This document shows, piece by piece, positions 13,233-15,028 of a stretch of DNA of 64,000 nucleotides (positions are counted from its first letter, which is position 1; every line of letters starts with the position of its first letter). The position numbers were made by a program, and so were the translations under genes. Under the pieces are notes generated by a model that worked only from the letters and a program-made list of their open reading frames with translations, was not told where the DNA came from and did not search any database. Source of the stretch: Bdellovibrionota bacterium (GTDB taxonomy: Bacteria > Bdellovibrionota > UBA1018 > CAUJDS01); assembly GCA_963169695.1 (NCBI GenBank), contig CAUJDS010000013.1, positions 1 to 64,000 on the forward strand, given 5' to 3'.

Positions 13233-13249
13233 AATTTTAAAAAGGTGCC

Positions 13250-13290
13250 ATTCAAAGGTGCACTGCACTTTTGAATCCTTTTTGGCCCGA
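13250..13290 (+). repeat. dispersed palindromic repeat, copy 1
   Basis: A 13-base arm (ATTCAAAGGTGCA) is followed by one C and its near-perfect complement, then by CCTTTTT and GGCCCGA. The same layout, with TGCACTG at the centre and TTGGCCCGA at the end, recurs about 4.7 kb away. The stem sequences differ but pairing is kept. This points to a mobile or structured repeat family rather than a gene-specific terminator. Confidence 0.6.
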
Positions 13291-13312
13291 AGTGCGTCAC
13301 AGTTAGGCCCGG

Positions 13313-13382
13313 CCCCAGCAAGGCGGGTTTGATTCTTGGAAGTTAGCGATGGATGACAGGGGGGGGAACAGCGAGGGGGGCG
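13313..13382 (+). repeat. left inverted-repeat arm of the HNH element
   Basis: This arm begins CCCCAGCAAGGCGGGTTTGA and ends with GCGAGGGGGGCG. It is the reverse complement, with few changes, of the arm beyond the HNH gene. The middle carries seven differing bases followed by an identical GGATGACAGG. Confidence 0.7.
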
Positions 13383-13444
13383 ACTTTGATGAAATACATT
13401 GAATATATGTAAGCTAACGGATCCGTACTAGGATCTAAGGGCAC

Positions 13445-13470
13445 CCCTTCGTCGTACTGTACGACGAGGG
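13445..13470 (+). repeat. hairpin inside the element, upstream of the HNH gene
   Basis: TCGTCGTA and TACGACGA form an eight-pair perfect stem around a three-base CTG loop, extended by further C/G pairs with one mismatch. It sits between the left arm and the HNH gene and might be a binding site or recombination structure. Confidence 0.4.
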
Positions 13471-13634
13471 CTTGATACCCGAGAAGTCTGCAGCAAAACT
13501 AGCTTTTCCGATTGTGACTTCGCTGTGAGTGCAAAATGAGATGCAGATGATTTTTCTCTTGGCGCCTTGAAAATGAGTTTCATTTGTTTCTTTTCGAAAG
13601 TTGCTCAAACTCTTTTATCACGATGCCATGGCCT

Positions 13635-13655
13635 CCCGCTTTCATTCAGAGCGGG
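13635..13655 (+). repeat. CCCGCT/AGCGGG hairpin in the HNH leader
   Basis: A six-pair stem with a nine-base loop ends about 120 bases before the HNH start and is followed by AAATGTTCATTTTA. It could be a weak terminator or leader structure for the HNH transcript. Confidence 0.35.
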
Positions 13656-13778
13656 AAATGTTCATTTTATGGGGAGGATCTTTATTCTAAGAATGAAACG
13701 CATGAGAGGCTAAAGCAGAGAGGATAATCGCACCGCAAAACCCGTGGTAAGTTCCATCTCGTTGAAAGGAACTCTCCA

Positions 13779-14738
13779 ATGTCACACCTGCTTTGCTCTC
13801 TTCACGATCAAGCCTTGAAACTTTCAAAACAGTATCTTGCTTGTGAGAAGGAACTCTTAGAAATCCTTGTGAAGATTGAAGCCAAGAAAGTCTATCTTGA
13901 GCAAGGCCATGCAAGCCTGACTGAGTATTCGCAAAAGGCACTTGGGCTATCTCGAGATGTTTGCTGGAATCTTGTTACCATTGTTCATAAATCCAAAGCC
14001 ATACCAGAGCTAAGGCACGCGGTGCAAATGGGAGTACTTCCTCTCAGTAAAGCAAGGCAGATCGCTCCCCATTTGACGAAGGAAAATTCTCAGAAGTTTA
14101 TCGCACTTGCGCAAGCCATGCCAAGAGAGAAGCTCCAAGAGGCCCTCGCCAAGGAAAGCCCCAAGATTCCAAGCGTGGAAGAGCGTGCTCGGGTGATCAA
14201 TGCAACCCAAGCGGAGCTTTCTTTGTGCCTGCCAAAGGAAGTCATGGAAAAAATCCGCCGTGCCCAAGATAGAGTCTCTGAGTCGCAGAAGAAGTGGGTT
14301 GGCCTGGCAGAGACTCTGGAGCAAGTCGTCGAATTCTACCTTCAGCATAAAGATCCAAAAGAAAAAGCCAGGCGTCATGAAGTTCGAAAAAACAAAGCTC
14401 CCGTGTCGGTAAAACAATCCCATCGTACAGTACGAGAATCTGCCGCGGCTGCTAGAGATTCTGAATTTAATTTTAGGCATATAAATAAGCCTAGAACCAA
14501 GATTCAAACAATTGGCCGAATCCCTATCCCAGCCGGCATCAAACACGAGGTGATTATCAAGAATGCACATCAGTGCACCTATCAAGACCCTAGGACCAAG
14601 CTTCGATGTGAGAAAGAAAGGTTCTTGCACATCCATCACAAACTTCCAGTAACAATGGGTGGAACGAATGCTCTAGAGAACCTTACTATGCTTTGTAGCG
14701 CCCATCATCGATTGGAGCATTATCAAAGTAGCGGGTGA
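13779..14738 (+). CDS. HNH endonuclease with N-terminal DUF222-like helical domain
   Basis: The C-terminal ~60 residues form an HNH nuclease. It includes a zinc-ribbon-like Cys pair (one in 'QCTYQ', one in 'LRCEKE'), then 'HIHHKLPVTMGGTNALENL' and 'LCSAHHRLEH', which supply the H-N-H residues. The N-terminal ~150 residues are helical, with 'SLTEYSQKALGLSRDVCWNL' and 'GVLPLSKARQIAPHL', resembling the DUF222-type region found before HNH domains. A basic, Ser-rich linker lies at 195-240. AAAGGA eight bases upstream supports the ATG. The gene stands alone between long inverted repeats. It may be a homing-like enzyme; targets are unknown. Confidence 0.85.
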   Translation: MSHLLCSLHDQALKLSKQYLACEKELLEILVKIEAKKVYLEQGHASLTEYSQKALGLSRDVCWNLVTIVHKSKAIPELRHAVQMGVLPLSKARQIAPHLTKENSQKFIALAQAMPREKLQEALAKESPKIPSVEERARVINATQAELSLCLPKEVMEKIRRAQDRVSESQKKWVGLAETLEQVVEFYLQHKDPKEKARRHEVRKNKAPVSVKQSHRTVRESAAAARDSEFNFRHINKPRTKIQTIGRIPIPAGIKHEVIIKNAHQCTYQDPRTKLRCEKERFLHIHHKLPVTMGGTNALENLTMLCSAHHRLEHYQSSG

Positions 14739-14785
14739 GTTTTAATGATCGCTGCGCACTTCTACTCGTAGGAGCTTTTCTTAGG

Positions 14786-14856
14786 CGCCCCCCTCGCTGA
14801 GTTCCCTTCCTGTCATCCAATGTTCACTTCCAAGAATCAAACCCGTCTTGCTGGGG
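14786..14856 (-). repeat. right inverted-repeat arm of the HNH element
   Basis: Read on the minus strand this arm begins CCCCAGCAAGACGGGTTTGA, contains GGATGACAGG and ends GCGAGGGGGGCG. It matches the left arm with one change in the outer 31 bases. It lies 47 bases after the HNH stop codon. Confidence 0.7.
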
Positions 14857-14909
14857 GTGCGCTAGGGTTATTTAGAGTCGTTAAATGGTCAGTGGCTTAG
14901 TGGTAGATG

Positions 14910-14934
14910 CCTATCCCTAACGTGGCGGGATAGG
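14910..14934 (+). repeat. perfect 8-bp hairpin between element and moxR-like gene
   Basis: CCTATCCC and GGGATAGG enclose a nine-base loop in the 290-base gap before the MoxR gene. The bases just before it resemble a tRNA D-arm, but no tRNA can be folded. No gene is seen in this gap, and no clear ribosome binding site precedes the MoxR start. Confidence 0.4.
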
Positions 14935-15028
14935 ATGCTTCAAATTGGCTTTGTACATATGGATAGCTCTTTACTTCAGAATCTGAGTTGCCAAGTCAGG
15001 AGCGCCTCGCTAAGGTTTCATCCACACT

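Follow-up and report, generated by a model that had tools for sequence, protein, structure and literature searches.

Elements that lack a transposase are usually regarded as inert derivatives of insertion sequences (IS). Mobile insertion cassettes and MITEs such as MIC231 carry no transposase and are described as becoming active through a cognate transposase from another genomic locus (PMC3129680). The element family described here resembles MIC231 and its kind in having inverted-repeat ends, target duplications, a passenger gene and no transposase, but it differs in its long subterminal inverted arms and invertible cargo, in the strong purifying selection on its passenger gene (16 intact paralogs) and in that a cognate IS was not found in the draft genome. 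The mycobacterial REP13E12 or DUF222-HNH repeats are likewise dispersed, multi-copy HNH genes without a transposase (PMC10589994). Unlike those repeats, however, the family here has no DUF222 domain. To our knowledge, no arms, tips or target duplications like the ones reported below have been described for REP13E12. Like IscB and OMEGA systems, the family pairs an HNH domain with conserved non-coding sequence ahead of the gene, but RuvC and PLMP domains are absent (the NCBIfam IscB model scores 28 bits against a cut-off of 175, over the HNH part only). Rfam gives no match for a structured RNA beside the HNH gene; in the upstream region, whose mean column identity is 80% across 12 aligned paralogs, two-sided changes occur at only 2 of the 48 pairs predicted and the covariation term comes out unfavourable, lending no support to a guide-RNA (OMEGA-like) reading. 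Free-standing homing HNH endonucleases offer the likeness of a lone, spreading HNH gene with specific palindromic sites, whereas the element here occupies many insertion sites unrelated to one another, with target duplications. In the literature searched we came upon no description of this element, and phage, plasmid and viral collections held either no relative or generic HNH matches only.

The window, a 64,000-nt stretch of a Bdellovibrionota contig, contains one old, degraded copy of this modular, transposase-less element family, with the following parts:

13238–13300, + strand: dispersed terminator-like repeat (AAAAAGGTGCCATTCAAAGGTGCACTGCACTTTTGAATCCTTTTTGGCCCGAAGTGCGTCA), recurring elsewhere in the genome, in place of the copy's left outer end
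13313–13385, + strand: left arm, a subterminal inverted repeat in which three blocks are conserved (CCCCAGCAAGGCGGGTTTGA..CT.GGAAGT; GGATGACAGG; CAGCGAGGGGGG), from the repeat search and the alignment of 35 arms
13450–13466, no strand: 17-bp palindrome CGTCGTACTGTACGACG about one central base, ahead of the HNH gene; almost every subfamily-1 unit has it
13506–13778, + strand: non-coding stretch ahead of the HNH gene, conserved in the 12-paralog alignment
13779–14738, + strand: HNH nuclease gene, 319 aa, with an N-terminal ParB-like HTH, a disordered linker and a C-terminal HNH domain
14421–14437, no strand: second, partly palindromic copy of the site within the ORF (CATCGTACAGTACGAGA, codons of HRTVRE)
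14574–14720, + strand: HNH motif, residues 266–314, including its cysteines and histidines
14783–14856, − strand: right arm, the left arm inverted, from the same search and alignment
14857–14929, − strand: remnant of a B-type outer end, matching the B end of C8:11426; the outermost ~65 nt and the tip are lost or diverged

The first-pass annotation had described imperfect inverted-repeat arms enclosing a single HNH gene and no transposase, and this anatomy holds. In the repeat search the arms pair over 53 nt (13313–13365 with 14804–14856, 87% complementary) and, further in, over 17 nt (13369–13385 with 14783–14799, 94%); the three blocks conserved among 35 aligned arms are those picked out earlier, and the intact ORF matches Pfam HNH (PF01844) above cut-off. 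By a rough count, 31 nt matching with one mismatch would arise in 2.6 kb of random sequence at odds near 1e-10, which, with about 40 left-arm matches in the same genome (G000; 2.79 Mb, 82 contigs, draft assembly), shows that the arm pairing is not chance. The genome also holds 28 HNH-protein matches at about 28 places, remnants included. Nine are further full-length paralogs with 85–92% identity to the window protein, several copies are truncated, and a second subfamily, ~27% identical to the first, sits between the same arms (for example C31:70882–72565, C11:104592–106261 and C60:203857–205528). Across these copies the ORFs between arms are HNH only, with no transposase. The earlier suggestion of a mobile unit is supported, the unit being multi-copy and transposase-less.

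Two sequence types, A and B, adjoin the arms on the outside and are essentially absent away from them. Traced outward, both finish in ~20-nt terminal inverted repeats (GGNCTCCGTAGTAATNGTTGAA-like tips) that are inverted at the two ends and, in a search of the draft genome, are confined to these elements apart from a few weak matches. Three copies run from tip to tip:

C60:158615–160166: 1,552 bp
C8:29106–29836: 731 bp, deleted inside
C60:150437–150612: 176 bp

All three are flanked by target duplications of 7–9 bp (GGATTGTCC/GGATTGCCC, AGTTTTA/AGTTTTA and CAATTTTA/CAATTCTA). These are near-duplications lying 0–2 nt from the tips, with a simulated chance of ~0.001–0.01 per element. The position of outer ends that the arms had been given is ruled out because A and B recur only with arms and bear the tips, which in complete copies lie 80–140 nt farther out. 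The arms are therefore subterminal modules of the element family.

In the window copy both tips are gone while the HNH ORF is intact, and the B-end remnant (~73 nt) aligns with the B end of C8:11426 at 82% identity over 79 nt. A tRNA-like sequence considered at 14880–14950 has no match in ARAGORN or Rfam; the stretch is B-end sequence. The terminator-like hairpin repeat on the left (AAGGTGCCATTCAAAGGTGCACTGCACCTTTGAATCCTTTTTGGCCCGAGGTGCGTCA) is dispersed, occurring at C69:1319, C11:130730, C56:6714, C34:25089 and C46:12999 as well as at 13238–13300, at several of these places without arms, and seems able to replace element ends.

Arm identity is 77% between left and right within an element, 74–78% between elements and 77% across the HNH subfamilies, a pattern more in keeping with sites bound by a shared factor than with recent arm-to-arm copying. 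As the first reading had allowed, the arms also behave as borders of recombination or exchange, with cargo found facing either way with respect to the outer ends. In subfamily 2 the gene's upstream side joins A-type ends in C11, C60b and C57 and B-type ends in C69, C8, C51 and C80, both kinds of junction resting on homology well past the arm in most copies; the inner cassette has thus been turned round or exchanged at the arms.

The HNH motif is complete, with its metal and zinc ligands, and its invariant columns are C266, C277, H286, H287, G294, G295, E300, N301, L302, C306, H309 and H314. With a median dN/dS of 0.13 in subfamily 1 (ten full paralogs, dS 0.3–1.1) and 0.17 in subfamily 2, the HNH genes of both subfamilies are under purifying selection, though several truncated copies exist. 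AlphaFold models the window protein (mean pLDDT 82, pTM 0.46) as a helical N-terminal domain joined through a disordered linker to the HNH domain at the C-terminus. The label 'DUF222-like' does not carry over to Pfam, where PF02720 is not among the families listed at E ≤ 1 for 26 proteins, the window protein and 25 homologs; HTH_ParB is matched in 5 of the 26, and the N-terminal domain resembles ParB/Noc DNA-binding domains (Foldseek probability 0.85–0.97, at weak E-values above 0.5). ParB-type domains bind palindromes as dimers.

In subfamily-1 units the palindrome CGTCGTAC(A/T)GTACGACG precedes the gene, and a near copy lies within the coding sequence; the two are ~970–1005 bp apart, or 288 bp in a truncated copy. 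The upstream site shows paired changes (CATCGTAC..GTACGATG), and the inner site is synonymously near-invariant among ten paralogs (by comparison with random codon sets, P 0.003). At ≤2 mismatches the genome holds 29 such sites, compared with 0 for the reversed control. Together, the predicted fold and the sites lead us to infer that the HNH protein binds the palindrome. Among the few palindromes outside full units, two are element remnants (C31:51655 and C31:58108) and one stands alone, at C8:21625 (L324:1626–1642). This perfect, intergenic copy (CATCGTACAGTACGATG), with no element remnant beside it, is a candidate for either an operator or a target that the HNH protein has left uncut. Two identical variant sites (CGTCGTACTGTGCGACA; C60:35089 and 36098, that is L083:1090 and L083:2099) lie near a divergent, truncated HNH gene, a 72% identical fragment, which suggests that the sites vary along with the nuclease. 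The subfamily-1 palindrome was not seen in subfamily-2 loci. Because the ~27%-identical subfamilies have arms in common but not this palindrome, the arms themselves, once proposed as the nuclease target, appear less likely to be so.

We searched 58 genomes, comprising the source genome, whose genus and family are singletons in this set, and relatives of the same order or class. HNH homologs occur in 33 of the 58, with up to 47 matches in one genome; some relatives show bursts of 14–47 matches and some same-genus sister species have none. In five genomes (nzgw169, G009, G039, G032 and G048) what recurs as a multi-copy unit is the ORF with 130–280 nt of upstream sequence, longer in some G009 copies, and neither long arms nor evident terminal repeats were found at these units; those of nzgw169 have no terminal inverted repeats and no target duplications. 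What spreads generally is thus the nuclease gene, whereas arms and tips belong to the lineage of the window, and such ends cannot account for the spread of HNH genes in general. On these comparisons the arms and the nuclease are separable, and the link first drawn between them gives way by half, in that HNH homologs are multi-copy without such arms in other genomes.

The nzgw169 units (L327–L339, 13 matches) are compact, at ~1,015 bp. A strong hairpin (GGGGCACGGC..GGGCCGC..GGCCC..GCCGGC) marks their 5′ border, and on the 3′ side they end with the last His codon, which leaves the flank to supply the stop codon. In G041, a 22-nt tip-like sequence (GGGCTCCGTAACAATCGTTGCA) recurs (L315, L319 and L321) by truncated ORFs resembling four-helix-bundle (23S intervening-sequence) proteins. 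Matches to the tip pattern in G041 and G042 were set aside, as they lie beside these truncated four-helix-bundle-like ORFs and about 0.5 matches are expected by chance; the inverted repeats at one G041 HNH copy are AT-rich low complexity.

The explanation we favour, and consider somewhat probable, is a mobile-insertion-cassette-like element on which a transposase acts in trans and whose HNH gene is kept as a palindrome-binding nuclease. A complete copy reads tip, outer end A, arm, HNH cargo with its palindrome, inverted arm, outer end B and tip. As for mobile insertion cassettes and MITEs, a cut-and-paste (DDE-type) transposase provided in trans would bind and cleave the tips and arms, while recombination between the inverted arms would flip or swap the inner cassette. 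The HNH protein may bind its own palindrome through the ParB-like HTH and nick or cut DNA there, an activity that would either keep the gene spreading or serve the host; we propose that this is why the gene has not decayed like dead cargo. By analogy, the mobilising enzyme is probably such a trans-acting transposase, although a tip-pattern search of the draft assembly did not find an autonomous element with these tips. The ISL3 family, the one transposase family sought in the assembly, is rejected as partner, its end (GGCTCTTCTCAGTTGATGG) differing from the element tips. An ISL3-family transposase C-terminus stands at two contig starts with identical ends (L311, C59:1–140; L312, C25:1–140; end GGCTCTTCTCAGTTGATGGTGGG), so a multi-copy ISL3 probably breaks the assembly.

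Possible, though unlikely, is that the HNH protein is itself the mobility enzyme, nicking or cutting palindromes, arms or ends so that host repair copies the unit, with no DDE, HUH or recombinase enzyme involved; the arms and tips seen in this genome would then serve as its substrate. The HNH gene and its upstream region are the sole part common to multi-copy families in many genomes, the gene is under strong purifying selection and each subfamily-1 unit has two palindromic sites, all as this reading would have it. Yet target duplications of 7–9 bp with terminal inverted repeats of ~20 nt typify DDE transposases rather than HNH nicking, arms and tips are common to both subfamilies while the subfamily-1 palindrome is not, and the nzgw169 units lack both kinds of end feature. 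In its boldest form, with the ParB-like HTH-HNH protein as the mobility enzyme of a new self-spreading class, recurrently bursting across Bdellovibrionota and acting at palindrome and arms without a DDE, HUH or recombinase transposase, the proposal strikes us as improbable. We rate as decidedly improbable a nested arrangement in which an arm-HNH-arm homing cassette has entered, in either orientation, one fixed site of an older MITE (tip-A-B-tip): the arm-to-arm cassette does occur in both orientations relative to A and B with the junction always the same, but neither an empty A-B MITE nor an armless A or B end was found, deletion derivatives aside. Very little probability attaches to host-serving dispersed nuclease genes (for example in defence) spread by ordinary recombination between repeats, with the arms as passive repeats, since, although tip-less copies such as that in the window keep an intact ORF and HNH restriction enzymes give weak matches confined to the HNH part, three loci have tips and target duplications, PADLOC matches are weak and mostly within generic HNH regions, and the window copy neighbours a MoxR-type AAA gene and a VWA gene, with no other defence genes alongside.

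At about 28 places in one genome, then, this family carries a nuclease gene or its remnant, under selection where intact, with palindromes that resemble its own binding sites and borders across which the cargo can be inverted. Should the nuclease aid spread, the element would move by a route that no known transposase class covers; if it does not, the family would clearly exemplify a nuclease retained as the cargo of a cassette. In both cases a testable anatomy becomes available for the HNH genes that have multiplied in many relatives of predatory bacteria.
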